A stretch of 64,000 nucleotides of DNA, from positions 744,001 to 808,000 of the forward strand of contig CM065878.1 of the NCBI GenBank assembly GCA_033439255.1. The letters are read 5' to 3'. The stretch is from Hericium rajendrae. Taxonomy: Eukaryota; Basidiomycota; Agaricomycetes; Russulales; Hericiaceae. Positions 4,635-33,987 of the stretch are shown here, piece by piece. The first letter of the stretch is position 1; each line of letters begins with the position of its first letter. The position numbers and the translations under genes are program-made. Under the pieces are notes generated by a model. The model was not told the DNA's origin and made no database searches. It saw only the letters and a list, made by a program, of their open reading frames with translations.

Positions 4635-5267
4635 TCATCCTTGGCCAGTCTCGTCCTCCACGACTTCATATCCTACCCATACCACCTCCGAACAGCTGCC
4701 GCACGCAACAAGATGCTGTCCCCTTTCCAAATCCCCCTCCGTTATCCTGTATACCCCGCCGCACCGACACGCATGTGTCCATGTCAACACCGCGCCCTCC
4801 CCATCCTCCTTAAAATCCTCAAGCGACACGATCTGCGCCGGCCGCGGCCCCTTCTTCTCCTCGCGATCATGATCTCGCCCTCGTCGGCGCATTTCTGCAT
4901 CATATTCTTCTCGCAGAGCTGGCGTCGACAGCGTATGGTATGCATCCTTGATGCGGCCAATATCCACGCCAGATGGTGTCGCATTGGCAGAGGTCGAAGG
5001 CGTCAGGGAGATGGGTACGAATGGTCGGTGTCGGTCTGGGTGGTATCGCAGGAGGACGTCATGGTACGCTTTCTTGATCGCGGCTTGATCTGCAGAGTAC
5101 GGGATGCCGAGGACAGCATAATGGTCTGATTCTATTGGATGGTCCAGTTTGGACCCAAGATGCCACGCTGAATCGCGTTGAAGAGAAAAGCCTGAATTCC
5201 GATCTTATCGACGTTGGTGAGTAAAGCTGCCCGCGAGTTTTGCAGCCGAGTGTGAATGTGACATCAT
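4635..5267 (-). CDS. DPH4: diphthamide biosynthesis J protein DPH4 (DNAJC24-like)
   Basis: J-domain protein carrying a CSL (DPH-type) zinc finger, which donates electrons and iron to the Dph1/Dph2 step of diphthamide formation on translation elongation factor 2. The J domain begins S-D-H-Y-A-V-L-G-I and contains the H-P-D tripeptide (L-L-R-Y-H-P-D-R). After I-K-D-A-Y-H-T-L comes the CSL finger with C-R-C-G-G at one end and C-G-S-C at the other, the four Zn ligands, then a short acidic tail. The main exon is 4635-5131. The start is uncertain: an ATG at 5267 can be joined through a weak donor (GTCGAT) to the acceptor at 5132, giving a 55-nt first exon in phase. The identity is secure; the first exon is not. 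Confidence 0.85.
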
Positions 5268-26000: not shown

Positions 26001-26411
26001 CTCGCCGCCCTCCTCGGCGCGTTCCTCCTCTACCGCCGCCGGCGCCGCAGCCTGCGCGAGACACAGGCGTTCAGCTTCGTCTCGCCGGTATTGCACTCGC
26101 ACTCGCGCGCGGGCTCCGTCGCGGAGATGGCACAGGCCGACGACGGCGTGGCGGTCAGCGTGCACACCCCGCCGACGTGGGCGCTCCCGCCCGTCGCCGG
26201 CCGCCGCACCCCCGAAGCCGAGCGCCCGCCGTCGTGGGAGCACGACGCGCAGCTCGAGAACCCGTTCGCGGACGCGCATTCGGCGCGCCGCTCGGGCTCC
26301 TCAGGATCGTTCCACACCAGCATGTCGGGGCCTGCGCCTGCATCGCCCGGCGTGTCGCCCGGCGTGTCGGAGGAGAGCGGCGCGAGCTCGGTCACGGTCA
26401 GAGAGACATAG
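23082..26411 (+). CDS. very long Ser/Thr-rich single-pass membrane protein with cytoplasmic tail (member 2)
   Basis: Function unknown. Five exons: 23082-23163, 23224-25125, 25208-25544, 25599-25886, 25946-26411, in frame, 1024 residues. Exon 1 starts M-P-P-L-G-R-L and has no signal peptide. Exons 2-3 encode some 700 residues of Ser/Thr/Pro, then Gly/Gln/Asn-rich sequence. Exon 4 is a less repetitive Thr/Val segment (L-T-T-F-T-S-A-F-L-T-P-I-V). Exon 5 opens with a membrane helix (L-L-P-L-I-L-G-P-I-L-A-V-L-L-L-A-A-L) followed by a run of Arg and a tail of about 120 residues. It lacks the family S-F-S-x-D-x-S-F motif and has a much longer tail than members 1, 3, 4 and 5, so it is probably a separate sensor-like protein of similar layout. 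An extracellular stalk plus cytoplasmic tail suggests a wall-stress sensor, but this is inference. Confidence 0.75.
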
Positions 26412-27099
26412 TGGCCGCGCCCGCCGAGCGGGGCGTCGCTCGATCCGTTCGTGGATCCGCCAGCTCCGCTCGTGACGGGGGCCGTTGACGAGGGCAGCTT
26501 CGTCATACCCAGGGTCCGAACGGTCCCAATCGCTCGACCGTTTTTGAGCGATCGCGACCGTTTCTGACCGATGTCCGTCAGGTGCCGCAGTCGTCACGTG
26601 ACCTTTTTGCATCTGGCCCCCTCCCGCCGGATCTGCAACCCTACCAACCCTACCAACCCTAGCGCCGGGTTCGCGGGGCGCGAGGGACGAAGTCGAACGT
26701 CCCGCCTGGCGCGCGCGGGCGATCCACGTCCCGGGCGCCGTCGCTCGTTCTCAACCACTCGGGTAGGTAAGCAAGAAGTAGGATTAGATCGGATGTATCG
26801 TAGGTACAGCAGAGCGGGGCATCACGAAGCCCGGAATCAAAGAAGAAAGAGTCGAGAATTAAAGGGAGAAAGTGAGAATAACTGACTGCATGAATGTGCG
26901 TTAAATGTCTTCTGTGCCTCCCTCTTCCACCAGCTGCCTCTGGATGCCAATACCTATGTGCACAGCGCCCGCCTCGTCGCGCTCGTTGCGCCCACGCCTG
27001 TGCCCGCGCGCTCGCCCTGCGCCCGCACCCTATGCTCGTCGCTCGCACCCATCGCGCCTACGCCCCCGTGCGTGCGTTTCGCACTTGCCGTGCACGCGC
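26412..27099. other. intergenic with inverted and tandem motifs
   Basis: About 690 bp. At about 26530-26555 a 7-bp perfect inverted repeat (ATCGCTC / GAGCGAT) encloses ACCGTTT, which recurs just downstream. At about 26637-26661 the 9-mer CCCTACCAA is repeated. This could be the edge of a mobile element at the 3' side of the transposase-like gene, but no matching right end was found. Confidence 0.4.
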
Positions 27100-30000
27100 C
27101 TACAGTTGTTGCTGGCCCGCGCTCGTGCTCGTCACCCCACTTGTTGTGCGTGTGCCGGTGCCAGCGCCGGGTGCGTCAATGACCGCGCCCATGCTTGTGC
27201 TTGCACTTGCACCCGCGCCGGCGCTCGTTGCGCCAACGCCAACGCCGACGCCAATGCCAACGCCGACGCCGGTGCCGGCGCTCGTTGCCCCCATGAACGT
27301 GCTCATCGAGTCTCCGCTCGTGCTGGCACCCGTCACGAGAACAGACCTGTCGATAGCGAGGAACCGCTGCCCGGCGACGCAGATGATGTGATCGTCGAGC
27401 GGCGGCCCTTCGATCTCGAGAAACTCCCACAACTTGAAGAGAATCTTGTCTTCAGTGTGATTCTTGACGAGCCGCATGTCGAGTGTGAGTGTGAATGTGA
27501 TCAAATCAATCGGGAGATCAAGGGGTTCTGACCATCGATGGCGACGCGCTCGTAGACGTCGCGCACGGTGTCGAGAAAGGCGGCGATGTTGAAGTGGGTG
27601 CCATCCTTGTAGATGCCGCTTGGCTGCGGCCACGGCGGCGGGGTGTCCTTATCATCCGAAATCTTGACGCCATCCGAGCAACATTTCAACTTGTGATTTT
27701 CGGGCGAGCCGGTGCTGCAAGGGTACTTGACGGTCTTGCAGCGCGTGCAGACCTGTGTTTTGCGCTGCGAGCAAGGCCCATGTCAGTTGCGTGGTGTGAC
27801 ACAGCGCGTGAATGCGCATGCAAATGCAGACGCACCGCCTTAGCGTCGGGCTTCTCGAGAGCGACGACACCACACTGATCTGTCCAGAACTTTGTCGAGC
27901 CTGACTTAGCTGGAGCGAGCGAGAGTCATTAACGGAACTAATTAATTGAACATCGCATGAAGTACTCACATACAAAATCCCCATCTCTGATGTGGGCTTT
28001 AATCATCTTCTCGAGGACCTTGAGCTTCTCGATAAGGGCGTCAGGGTGTTTGTTGACGGTGCATAGACCCTTCTTCGTATTGCTGGCGCGAAGCCTGTTG
28101 TTGTACGCCGTCGTCGCATCGATCCATGCGCGCGACGTCATCGTGAAGGAGACCCACTTGTACTCTAACCTCATGTCCGTAAACAGGTAATACTCATCGT
28201 CGCCTTCGATCTTCAGCGAATGGGGGTGTACTCTCGTGAGTACAGAGAAAAAGCGCTCCGTGCACGTGAGTCCGTTCAAAGGCGGGATCGGGATGAGCGG
28301 CAGCGCGTTGTCCTTGCGTGGTGCGGCCCCATCATTTCGACTGGTCGGGGGCCTGTGTGGTTGGAAGAACGCGTCGACCCGTGAGCCAACCTTGCTTCTG
28401 CCACCTGGAACGGCGATGTTCGCTGGGATCTGAAATGATGGTGCCGGCCCGAGAGCGACAGAGGAAATATGTATGTGAATGTCGTCAGAGCGAATCAACG
28501 GGACAGGAACCGGAATGGGCGCACCTTAGAAACGGCAGTTACACCCTTGTATTGCGACGGCAGACGCGCTCGCTTTGCCGCAGGTCTCGCCTGATCGCTG
28601 GAATCCTCTGCGTCACCGCGGGTGCGCGTGTCTGACTTCTTGCGCTTCGTTGTCGCTGAAGCCGCTGGCACTGCACGACCGGTTTCCGATGCCGAGTCAC
28701 GCAGGGTGCTTGGGACAGGCTGGGTAGATGAGGACTCAGGATCGACGTGAGCCCCCGAGGCAGGCCGCACATCGTATTCCGAGTCCTCAGTCAGATCCTG
28801 ATCATGCAATGTGTGAGTACAGTCTCCCTCGAACAAAGGACTCGGTACTCACACAAACATCGCTGGCCCCAGGTTCCGGTACGTCTCTCAGCGTCGGCCC
28901 TTCGATTGAGGGCGATACTTGCAATGTAGATTGCTGCGCAGAGAGACCGTCTTGAGGTTGGGAGATGAGGCGAAGGCGCGGGTCGATGTGGTCATCCGAA
29001 AGTGCCGTCGAGGATGTAGGCTGTGAAGTGGGCTGCGCGGCGGCATCACGGCTTTGAGGGACAAAACGAAGACTTGGGTCGATATGGAGCGATGCCAAGA
29101 AGGCGGCGCCCTGCGGGTCGATCTCGTCTGGGTCTTCAAGCTCGACCCGTTCCACGAGGTCGAGCGGTTCCTCGATCTCCTCCTTTGTGGGCGGGGAATC
29201 CTGGAATTTCTTGACCTCGGACTCTACGATCCCGCCGAAGTTCTTCGAGTGCGCCGGCGACGTGATGCCAAACGTTTCGCCACTGGCGACGTTGGGCAGC
29301 TGCGGGCGATCCGTCAATACCGTGTCCTTGTTGTGCCGCCGTTCTATCTGAGATAGAAGCCTGTTCCATGTGGATGCAATGTGGTCAGTAAGATGGACGT
29401 GATGACACCCGTGGGTAGATACTACGAATCGTTCTGATTCGGTCTTCGCATTTTCCGCATTGAGGCGCGCGATGCCGATTCGCATGTTGCGGCGGTGGAC
29501 GAAGTCGTGTGCGAGACCATTAAAGAGCTCGATGCCGCTCGGATGGGAGCGCATTATCGAGTTCCAATGTTTGTTGGTGCCCTCGATACGGCTGCCGTCG
29601 GAGCGAATGTCCTGCCTGCAGCGTGTCAGGCATCCTTTCTCGACGTGCCGAAGTTGATCCTCGTGCACCTGATGGATGTTCCAGCCGCATGTCCATCAGA
29701 AAGTGAAGGTGCAGTGTGAGAGTAGAAGGAACTCACCTTCTGGGCTGCTGCTGACCAAACTGTTCCCTTCTTGACCCACTTCTCGTACATGCTCTTCAAT
29801 TTCTCCTCTTGCTCAGGCTGGCTCCAATATTCGGCCGGCCGTCCTTTCGCGGCGCGTACTTTCAAGATTGCATTGACCACGTCTTGCGCAACAGCTGATC
29901 TGTGTGGGTTCCTCAGCCCATTTACCACCGCAGCTAGATACCTGTACAACGTAGCACTAACACATCAATGTCACATTTCGTGGGGGCAGAATACACAGAA

Positions 30001-31845
30001 CGCACCGCATCATTAAGTGGTACGTGTCCAAAACGACCTGAGTGTTCGGCATCGCTTCGACAATCGCGCTGCGGAAATGGCAACACGAGTCGACGACGGT
30101 GATCTCGGGCAGGGGAACTCCTAGCAGCTCACAGCGCCGCACATAGCCTTTCAGCATGTTGGTGAGCTGCGAATTCGACTGCGATCGGGACATCTCCTGA
30201 GGGGAAATGAGTAGTCAGCATCAGTAAGTCTTGTCAGCACGTCGCGCACTGCTTTGACTTACCCAAAACATCGATTCGGTATGCTCGTTGATGGCGGTGG
30301 TGAGGCCGCCCGTTAGGACCTTGGTGTGCTTGTGGTTACCGTCGGTAACCGTCGCCTTCTTTACAACCTTGAAGGTCGCGTCGGTCGACAAGGAGATACC
30401 TGATGCGACATTTTGGTAAGTCTTTACTGCCGTTGTTGTGAACACAGACTTAGACTTACCGTGCAATGTTCTCATGTATCGCTGTGACTCCGTCTCGCGC
30501 GATCGTGTGGTGAAGTCCAAGTAGACTTCCGAGATTATCTCATCCGAGATTGAGGGACTGCCATATCCCGCGATCTTGAACGGCTCCGCAAACGGCTTTA
30601 GCGGACGGTAGTGGAAGTACGCGCCATGCATACTGCGGTAGGTCTCGAGGTAATCGAGCTGTGCCTTGTTGTATTCAAGCAGGTGCAGCTCTGAACAAGT
30701 GACGGGTGAGCTTTCCCATGGTACGACAACAGCAGGAAGGGAAAACAACTTACGGCGGATGTTCTCTGCCAGTCCGCTTGACGTTGTCGAAGGGCGAAGC
30801 TCGACGATCAAGTCAAGGAGCTCGCGGGTGACGCCGCAGCGCTTGAAGAAGACCGGTACACCACCTGTCGAGCGCGGCGTGTCCCGAGTGCATGTCAGCG
30901 GTGAGAACTGAGATACAAAAGTGATGTAACGTTACGACTTACGAGGGATTGCCCACAGCTCCCACTTCTGCCAGAACTCCCTGCTTGTTGTTAAGCAACA
31001 GAACGGCTCGGTGGCTTCGTCTTCATCGACGTCCTTCGAGTCTGCCAGCGTGCTATTGGCTGACTCGGGCGCCGCCGTCTGTTGTGCAGGGGCGCTCGCG
31101 CTGGCTTTCGCCTTCTTCGAGTTTGCCTTTTTCGAGCTTGCCTTCTTCGATTCCGCCTTCTTCGCGCCTGCCTTCTTCGCGCCCGCCTTCTTCGAGGAGC
31201 TCGACCTGGTGTCTCCCAGTTTCTGATTGCGTTCCTCTTCACAGCGCTTGCAGCGGAGCTGGACTCCGATTGCATGCTCTTCCTGGTGAACACCATGGAT
31301 GTTGCGGTGGCCCTTCGAACTCCACCCCTCCCAACCGATGTTCGTCGAGTCGCAGACGGGACACTTAGCAAGCTTCGGGTAGTAGAATGGATGTATTATG
31401 TGAATTGGCTTCAGGTAAGCTGTGTCTGGTGTAATCTCGGCGTTCTTCTGACGCTTCAATAGATCTTGATAGGCTGGCGGTGAGAACTGCGGGCCGTAAA
31501 GAGGCAGCCCGTCTGGGAGAAAAGACGCGCAATGCGTCCCCGTCGCCATGGTAAGGTGGTGAACGTAGTCGACATACTTGACAATGTTCGCTTCCCACTC
31601 GAGTTGACCTTCAGTAAACGTGCCCGCTTTGCGGTGCTTTATCCAGGAGTTCTTCTTCGAAGTGACCTATGAGAAGAGGTACATCAAATGCGTGGAGTGC
31701 ACCCGCCGTCAGCATGATCTCGCGGTTAAGTCTGCGCTGGGCGACGTACCGCACTCTGCCAATCCACGTCGAAGCTCTTTTGCTTGTCGCGTGGAAGCGT
31801 GTTGCGGATCAGCGCGCGCACAACACATGGATCGAAAGTTGCCAT
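27100..31845 (-). CDS. zinc-ribbon plus DDE-transposase-like protein (D(2)H type)
   Basis: About 13 exons, roughly 1300 residues, all junctions in frame. Exon 1 is 31750-31845 and exon 2 is 30943-31666. A C-P-V-C / C-K-R-C pair near residues 134-174 forms a zinc ribbon (H-P-F-Y-Y-P-K-L-A-K-C leads in), like the DUF6729 domain I recall from basidiomycetes. A Lys-Lys-Ala repeat tract follows. The core then has D in S-T-D-A-T-F-K near 396, D in I-T-V-V-D-S-C-C-H-F near 471, the D-x-x-H signature D-T-Y-H near 492-495, and E in S-R-I-E-G-T-N-K-H-W-N near 596. This order and the D(2)H element match the RNase-H-fold catalytic core of MULE/hAT-like transposases. The rest is acidic, then a basic Arg/Lys patch, a folded-looking domain, a second Cys cluster (C-T-R-C) and a Gly/Ala/Thr-rich tail. 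Either an autonomous transposon gene or a domesticated one. Confidence 0.75.
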
Positions 31846-32294
31846 GGCCGCAAACGAGGTCGGGTGCAAGGACGCTGAGGGGGCGCGAGGATGAGGGACA
31901 CGAGCAGGACGAGAAAGCACAGCGAGCGAGCGACGAAACGACAGGAGGCCACGGAGGCAATCTGTGACCCATTGTCGGTACATTGTAATCGTGAAGTATC
32001 TCGGCTAGTGGTTAATTCCATTTTACCCTGCTCTTCACATTTTTCTCAAGGCTGCACTGGCAGTCTGACATTTCGGCAAGCAGTAAATATGATACACATA
32101 TAGTGGTACAGGATTAGAATATATAAACACACTGCTACAAGGCCATTAGAAAGAATCTCGGAGACAGATACAAGTTATACTATGTGCCATTGGGATCCTG
32201 TATAGAGGAAAGACGTGAATAAATAGTGAAAGATAAGCGCGAGCGCGAGCGCGGGCACGGCGATCACCAGCGCATTTACCTTCGCTCTTCGTAA
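31846..32294. other. intergenic between the two accessory genes
   Basis: About 450 bp, AT-rich in part, promoter of the transposase-like gene on the minus strand. No frame recognised. Confidence 0.4.
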
Positions 32295-33334
32295 TCAGAG
32301 AATATGCATGGACAGCAAGCGAGCTGCCATGGTCTCGGGCGTCGGGACATCTTCGCCCGCTGGGCGCCCGCTCTGGAGTGTGAAACGGACGCGGACGCGG
32401 GAGCCGAACGGCACGTCGTTGAGCGTCCGGAAGGGGCGACGGTTTTCCTCCATGTCGTACACCGGCATGTACGACATGGGGTTCTTGCGGCTGCCCTTAA
32501 CATCCTGTACAAGAATATGATACCATCGAGCAGCTATACAACTTTAAAAAAAGAATATACATACGGCTTTGACAACATCCGATGGGGTCCAGTAAATCTG
32601 GAGCAAGTCCAGATCAGTTGTCATGCGTGGCTTGCCGGGCTCGGGTTGAACGAGCTGGGACGTGATAGCGCCGCCGTCCCTGCCAATTGCCTGCAGGCGC
32701 CGCAATCCCTGCCTCCATACGGCATTCTCCAAGCCTCGTTCGGCCGGCGGACCAAGCCAGCAGGACGCTTGCATACGGTGCGCCATGCCCGCATTGGACT
32801 CGAAGCCGGACTCGCCCCGATCGCCGCGGGTTGTGAGGTAGAAGTCGGGCTCGCGCCTGAGACTTCCTTTCATCTCAAAGATGATGGCCGGCTTATCGAA
32901 GCGGCCACCCTTCTCGTCGACAAAGTGGCGATCCTCGCTGTAGAGGCGCTCCGGCTGTGTGTCGAGGCAGCGGACGAACTGCGCGGTGGGAGGAAGATCG
33001 TTAAGTCCGGGGTTGCAGATAGTGAATGTCCTTTCCTGGTACGCGTGGTAGTCGGCATTGATGGCCTGCATAGCGATGTCGACAGTGTGAGAGCACTGGT
33101 GATGTTTTCGTTAGAGGTAGAGGTTTGCTGCGCCCCTCACAAGGCGCAACCAGTCAGCATTATCAGAGCGCGGCGGAACGTCCTTACTTGGAAATCGAGC
33201 GAGCGGAGAGCAAGGAAGGGTGTCGAGCTGCATATTTCAGTATCTACGCCAAATCTAACATTCAAAGACCCGGACATTTGGGCGTACATCTGAAGCGACG
33301 AGCCCGGAGATCGGATTGAGCGCTTGATAACCAT
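32295..33334 (-). CDS. unrecognised 295-residue protein beside the transposase-like gene
   Basis: Three exons in frame: 33188-33334, 32565-33095, 32295-32504. I do not recognise the family. The N-terminus reads M-V-I-K-R-S-I-R-S-P-G-S-S-L-Q-M-Y-A-Q-M, then a segment with C-L-D-T-Q-P-E-R-L-Y-S-E-D, an F-E-M-K-G-S-L-R-R-E-P-D-F-Y strand-like stretch, and a C-terminus I-Y-W-T-P-S-D-V-V-K-A then N-P-M-S-Y-M-P-V-Y-D-M-E-E-N. No signal peptide or membrane helix. It sits on the same strand as, and 450 bp upstream of, the transposase-like gene, so it could be a partner gene of one element, for instance a DNA-binding accessory; this rests on position only. The true start is ATG at 33334. Confidence 0.65.
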
Positions 33335-33987
33335 CAAAAGAAGCTCTGGTTAAGCAACGGCGGGACCTCCAGCTGTGGACCACCCTTCCCAGCCTCCGGA
33401 CGCGGCCCCGAGACCCTCCCTTCCCACTTTTTTTGCTGCCTGCGGCAGCCAGACCCTTCGTATGACCGATTTCGCGTTGACGAGAACAGGCTGAGCGCGA
33501 TCAGCTCGGGGATGGAGGCGGGGTCGGACGTTGCGAGTCTGCGCGTGAGTCTTCGCTGTTGATTTTTGCCGTGTCGGTTGATGGCTGATGGGGTGCGGGT
33601 GTCCGTCCAGTTCGAGGCGATATGAGGGGGTGTGGACGTGTTTTGCAGATTCGCGTGATGCATGCTGGAGTTTGTGTAGAAGCTCCGTCCGCTCGTTTAA
33701 GAAGAGGAAATTTGGGTGTTGATTCGGGAGGAGATGTGTTCTTGTGGCGTTAATTGAAGTCTGGAACTTATTCACTGCTCCTGCATTTTCTGACCGAGCA
33801 ATGGTGCAACGTCGATCGTGGACCTTATACTTAGGCTGACCATCCGACATGTGTATCTCATGTACTTAGTCTTACATTGCAAGCAAGCAACAAAGCCATT
33901 CATACCATGTACATCGTGTCCATATCGTTGTTACCGCAGTGTGCAATGCAGCTACAACGTGTATAAATTACCACATGATAATTACCC
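33335..33987. other. intergenic, nothing recognised
   Basis: About 650 bp. A minus-strand frame (33350-33850) covers most of it but its composition is not protein-like and no family is recognised. It may include the left border of the accessory block. Confidence 0.4.

Follow-up and report, generated by a model that had tools for sequence, protein, structure and literature searches.

A probable cut-and-paste DNA transposon family of Hericium rajendrae and the resemblance of its transposase to DUF6729 proteins

The 64,000-nt stretch of Hericium rajendrae DNA analyzed here (the window; G000:C1:744001-808000 in a 46.8-Mb, 19-contig assembly) contains a spliced gene that very probably encodes the transposase of an autonomous-looking cut-and-paste DNA transposon. 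The enzyme would belong to the broad Mutator/IS256/ISL3 group of DDE transposases, standing beside the DUF6729 proteins, and none of the curated families of Mutator-like elements (MULEs), ISL3 or KDZ (Kyakuja-Dileera-Zisupton) fits it fully. A preliminary description of the gene had proposed a DDE transposase, possibly domesticated, that carries a D(2)H signature and has a zinc ribbon at its N-terminus; its identity as a DDE transposase is supported because the gene sits between terminal inverted repeats and a 9-bp duplication, and the core matched transposase families exclusively at E < 0.01.

Termini, target duplications and copies of the element

The window element ends in imperfect inverted repeats of 22 bp, identical to each other at 14 of 22 positions, and is flanked by a perfect 9-bp target duplication, CTCGTCAAC. 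Matches to the transposase core were found at 27 places in the genome (83 exon-level matches, combined by eye), or about 25 elements after merging two pairs of same-strand neighbors. Both ends were present in ten of the 27 loci fetched, nine of which showed a 9-bp duplication, perfect in seven and matching at 8 of 9 positions in two; by random placement, the chance per locus is 5e-5 for 9/9 and 0.0034 for at least 8/9. The weight matrices for the ends were built partly from the same loci, and the initial visual placement of some ends was made with knowledge of the duplications; L025 (9/9) and L032 (8/9) show duplications although they are in neither matrix. Terminal inverted repeats with a duplication of constant length are a general mark of DDE DNA transposons. 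Duplication-flanked elements are 6.7–7.6 kb long, except that in L032 (8.3 kb).

Copy-to-copy similarity reaches well outside the transposase gene. One near-identical pair shows 99.2–99.8% identity over three blocks (ca. 7.2 kb aligned) and a second pair is 98.3% identical over 5.4 kb; therefore, movement was recent. The 5′ terminus exists in two versions, found at 17 (up to 3 mismatches allowed) and 11 genome places, with one place common to both and 27 distinct places, and reversed controls gave 0. In each of the ten two-ended elements, the terminal 200 bp on the 3′ side hold 3–6 CGGTC/GACCG words, against a background inside the elements of 0.2–0.7 per 200 bp; the 5′ end has 0–4.

Other observations concern individual loci. 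Seven of the 27 5′ terminal repeats (G000:C1:645096, C1:4145882, C1:5258182, C2:1528084, C6:1104918, C6:1105933, and C11:60784) have no core match within 100 kb and are possibly non-autonomous or decayed copies. In one of the two merged pairs, a 1-kb direct repeat, 99.6% identical (positions 5219–6237 of L031 and 3550–4569 of L033), splits one element, which suggests the long terminal repeats (LTRs) of a retroelement inserted in it. Three family loci contain an inserted 380-bp repeat, 97–99% identical and perhaps a solo LTR (in coding-strand orientation, L013 4930–5311, L018 6637–7020 and, twice, L032 4545–4924 and 5206–5587), and L028 and L034, in G000:C17, share internally repeated 2.4-kb DNA that is 94% identical. 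In the window, the insertion (flanks 26409–26492 and 33476–33570) touches the 3′ end of a plus-strand gene, or lies immediately beyond it; the gene encodes a serine/threonine-rich protein with a membrane-spanning stretch. The joined flanks stay open across the site, yet there is an in-frame TGA ca. 70 bp upstream.

The transposase, its companion gene and the DUF6729-like region

The transposase gene runs on the minus strand from 31845 to 27501, with 12 exons and a stop-free reading frame of 1193 aa. Its 11 introns are all GT-AG and 55–95 bp long, and the same introns, again with no stop, were recovered for this copy by a purpose-written splice-aware aligner. The preliminary description had the gene free of inactivating stops, as it proved to be, although its 13 exons, end at 27100 and ca. 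1300 residues have to be replaced by the values above. Likewise, the zinc ribbon and catalytic motifs that it listed are all found, the catalytic residues with a numbering lower by two. Its Lys-Lys-Ala tract is indeed a Lys/Ala-rich stretch in the window protein, but it is a variable linker across copies rather than a conserved feature: among six close copies, it is Lys-rich in L010, acidic in L015 and otherwise different. The features of the element, with their basis in brackets, are as follows.

26493..33475, minus strand: complete DNA transposon of 6983 bp (two termini, 9-bp duplication, borders common to other copies)
33476..33484, no strand: target-site duplication copy 1, CTCGTCAAC on the coding strand of the element (flank comparison)
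33454..33475, minus strand: 5′ terminal inverted repeat, GCGAAATCGGTCATACGAAGGG (terminal pattern search)
32565..33071, minus strand: open reading frame 1 (ORF1) exon 1, aa 1–169 (gene model; relatives upstream in 16 other loci)
32295..32504, minus strand: ORF1 exon 2 with stop (gene model; preceded by a 60-bp GT-AG intron)
31750..31845, minus strand: transposase exon 1 with start codon (gene model)
30943..31666, minus strand: exon 2, zinc ribbon C134-x2-C137/C171-x2-C174 and Lys/Ala-rich linker (gene model; DUF6729-like by profile comparison)
30754..30864, minus strand: exon 3, second half of the DUF6729-like region (gene model and profile comparison)
30460..30690, minus strand: exon 4 (gene model)
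30263..30399, minus strand: exon 5, D394 at 30382–30380, DATFK (gene model, family alignment)
30006..30196, minus strand: exon 6, D469 at 30091–30089, D490 at 30028–30026 and H493 at 30019–30017 (gene model, family alignment)
29737..29941, minus strand: exon 7, between D-x2-H and E (gene model)
28853..29668, minus strand: exon 8, E594 at 29584–29582, RIEGTN (gene model, family alignment)
28525..28797, minus strand: exon 9, low-complexity linker (gene model)
27970..28429, minus strand: exon 10, where the conserved C-terminal domain starts (gene model, family alignment, genome matches)
27836..27909, minus strand: exon 11 (gene model)
27501..27764, minus strand: exon 12, second Cys cluster (C1112, C1115, C1135; ca. 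1112–1135) and stop codon (gene model, family alignment)
26493..26692, minus strand: 3′ subterminal 200 bp with 4 CGGTC/GACCG words, candidate transposase-binding sites (word count; putative function)
26493..26514, minus strand: 3′ terminal inverted repeat, reverse complement GGCAGCTTCGTCATACCCAGGG (border comparison)
26484..26492, no strand: target-site duplication copy 2, CTCGTCAAC (flank comparison)

Residues D394, D469, D490 (in the motif D490-T-Y-H493), H493 and E594 are kept in 23/24, 23/24, 24/25, 25/26 and 23/25, respectively, of the rows with a letter at the position, the rows having been aligned to the window protein, which favors agreement. In seven divergent copy pairs, the ratio of nonsynonymous to synonymous substitution rates (dN/dS) was 0.06–0.15 for the core, with dS near saturation in several pairs, and 0.10–0.33 for the C-terminal domain; the core is under purifying selection. 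The values from near-identical pairs (0.28 and 0.48 for the core, 0.57 and 1.23 for the C-terminus) were not used, as they derive from few changes and partly rest on a poor gene model of L024.

Upstream of the transposase gene and on the same strand, ORF1 encodes 238 aa in two exons. Its relatives occupy 28 stretches of the genome, 26 of them at 8 kb or less from a core match, one at 18 kb and one at 39 kb (C6:3038057); the C-terminal Cys domain of the transposase matches 51 stretches, 46 at 8 kb or less from a core match and the remainder within ca. 15 kb. Both ORF1 and the C-terminal domain cluster by core copies and therefore belong with the transposon family. The preliminary description was right about a second Cys cluster in the C-terminal half, which it took as foreign to transposases, but this part is shared by other copies of the family. 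Pfam gave no match for ORF1, either with pieces (E up to 10) or with the whole protein (E up to 1). A TET/JBP passenger gene, suggested by PMC12730594, was not seen in ORF1, which had no Pfam match.

Pfam also locates DUF6729 (PF20499) at six other places in the genome, whereas a direct scan of the window protein gave no DUF6729 match at E up to 10. We compared by hhalign, in local mode without realignment, an N-terminal profile of the transposase (aa 110–184 plus 255–390, omitting the linker; 21 of 27 loci, ten for the first part) with an alignment of five of the six genomic DUF6729 proteins, obtaining a probability of 95, an E of 3.4e-8 and a score of 57.7, against maxima of 22.1 for column-shuffled (n = 50) and 18.1 for reversed controls. 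Searched singly against the N-terminal hidden Markov model, the five DUF6729 sequences gave values from 6.5e-10 to 0.0023 and 0.04 (five-sequence search). By profile comparison, and not by direct scan, the transposase N-terminus is thus a divergent relative of DUF6729; the resemblance suggested in the preliminary description agrees with the former analysis and not with the latter. One of these DUF6729 genes (G000:C7:2670200-2672090; L050, L051), spliced by hand, encodes a stretch like that spanning the first two aspartates of the transposase (D1 and D2), followed by a 3′–5′ exonuclease domain (PF01612, E 1.5e-9); its product matches the transposase by blastp with an E of 5e-4 over 88 residues.

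Proposed mechanism and significance

To judge from its sequence features, the element would work like Mutator and ISL3 elements, and it conforms in full to no family tested. The DUF6729-like zinc-ribbon region would bind the element ends, perhaps at the repeated CGGTC sites, and a putative RNase-H-fold core, with D394, D469, E594 and two metal ions, would cleave at these ends. As in DDE enzymes in general, the core would then join the ends to the target DNA at positions staggered by 9 bp, and repair of the stagger would generate the target duplication; the ORF1 product and the Cys domain at the C-terminus may aid binding or assembly.

The element might represent an undescribed superfamily of eukaryotic transposons, a proposal that we advance tentatively and consider somewhat short of an even chance, characterized by two genes, 9-bp duplications and a transposase in which DUF6729 serves as the DNA-binding module and is followed by a DDE core bearing D-x2-H and by a Cys domain at the C-terminus. 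DUF6729 would then be the N-terminal module of such transposases, and the DUF6729-exonuclease proteins of this genome would be host genes derived from a truncated transposase that kept the zinc ribbon and the first two aspartates, with a nuclease replacing the E-bearing part. A text search of open-access papers, judged by title in the case of ISL3 in fungi, found no fungal transposon of this kind; these papers make no mention of DUF6729 or PF20499, and their mention of DDE_Tnp_ISL3 concerns cas genes. Repbase may hold an entry for the element under MuDR.

The element suggests a role for DUF6729, a Pfam domain of unknown function, by tying it to transposition, and adds a two-gene DDE transposon lineage hardly detected by curated transposase models, illustrating how such elements can escape annotation in fungal genomes. 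If DUF6729-exonuclease proteins do derive from it, they offer a testable case of transposase co-option.

Comparison with known transposase families

Pfam and NCBIfam scans were done with 11 core sequences from the 27 places. The best curated match was DDE_Tnp_ISL3 (PF01610), found in nine of the 11 (best E 9.8e-7), and among NCBIfam models IS256 was matched by five and ISL3 by four. In profile comparisons, the stretch from D1 to D-x2-H scored 42.9 with the DUF6729 protein of the same genome (0/100 shuffles as high, maximum 20.8), 25.4 with a single ISL3 transposase (0/100), and 19.6 and 12.1 with two MULEs of the same genome (1/100 and 36/100). The core is therefore most like the DUF6729 protein, then like bacterial ISL3 and, weakly, like MULEs.

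Several results weigh against our interpretation of the gene as the transposase of an autonomous-looking element of this broad group. L027 holds both ends without a matching 9-bp duplication (1/10 loci), and many copies have stops or frameshifts, of which the window copy is free. Two of the five DUF6729 sequences score weakly when used singly (0.0023 and 0.04). Scores with curated families are low: against the PF01610 cut-off of 23 bits, core pieces reach 23.6 and 24.0, and the full-length window protein, with 22.4, falls just below it. Lastly, a profile search of the PDB gave no relative, its sole match being irrelevant (E 0.61).

The transposase could instead come from an ordinary but divergent MULE, which we consider rather unlikely. 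MULEs have the catalytic order D..D..[CD]-x2-H..E, as does the window protein, and the MULE model PF10551 was weakly matched by five of the 11 cores (best E 7.3e-4); the genome scan gave a match to it in one copy (E 0.0087). A 9-bp duplication is shared with many of the MULE groups in Table 1 of PMC6446971, where entries of 8–11 bp occur, and that survey includes MULEs with short repeats and two ORFs, such as the Mutyl subgroup, which has 22-bp repeats, duplications of 9–10 bp and, of its two ORFs, the second in antisense orientation. However, the window protein (E up to 10) matched neither PF10551 nor SWIM or FLYWCH, and the profile scores with the two MULEs of the same genome are at or near shuffled level, far from that of the DUF6729 protein. 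In the accessible part of PMC6446971, the survey table places Basidiomycota in one Hop subgroup alone and has no row joining the features of this element.

That the family is a eukaryotic offshoot of bacterial ISL3 transposons appears improbable, even though DDE_Tnp_ISL3 is the top curated match and the single ISL3 sequence exceeded all shuffles. Ten weak matches were found among plasmids (best E 0.03), one annotated as an ISL3 transposase and another, which reads like it, as a plain transposase; nothing better than E 0.5 appeared in phages by tblastn, and 41 pattern matches in viral_contigs and 18 in genome_contigs included no confirmed relative. However, the ISL3 profile match does not extend along the whole core but only from D2 to a little beyond D-x2-H, and an alignment of seven plasmid ISL3 transposases scored 23.0 over 26 columns, barely above the best of 30 shuffles (22.3) and at the limit of chance. 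ISL3 elements generate 8-bp target duplications, whereas those of this family are of 9 bp; also unlike ISL3, the window element has two spliced genes and a transposase of 1193 aa.

That the gene is a domesticated transposase, a host gene with the fold kept and mobility lost, is hardly credible: the long intact gene, purifying selection and the additional low-complexity and Cys-rich parts would fit it, but the inverted repeats with a perfect 9-bp duplication already contradict it and the C-terminal part is common to other copies, so that the domestication entertained in the preliminary description is not supported because the gene is part of a multi-copy mobile element.

Membership in hAT was rejected: no hAT model was among the Pfam matches of the window protein (E up to 10) or of the 11 copies, and hAT duplications are of 8 bp rather than 9 bp. 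The KDZ elements are likewise fungal DNA transposons and are common in this genome (at least 174 matches), which, together with its spliced genes, suggests a basidiomycete, but the window protein (E up to 10) and the 11 copies (E up to 1) have no match to PF18758. As given in the available text of PMC12730594, Zisupton, as well as Zisupton-1_PGr of the Dileera lineage, have 8-bp duplications.

The closest resemblance of the transposase is to the DUF6729-exonuclease protein of the same genome. Both have, in the same order, a zinc ribbon, a helical region and the start of a DDE-like core (D-H-S-F-K-V and, later, M-D-S, in the DUF6729 protein), with profile matches in both the N-terminal and core parts. 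They differ after the second D, where no D-x2-H or E can be seen by eye in the DUF6729 protein, which continues into an exonuclease. We interpret DUF6729 as the putative DNA-binding N-terminus of a lineage of transposases, and the DUF6729-exonuclease fusion as a possible co-opted transposase.

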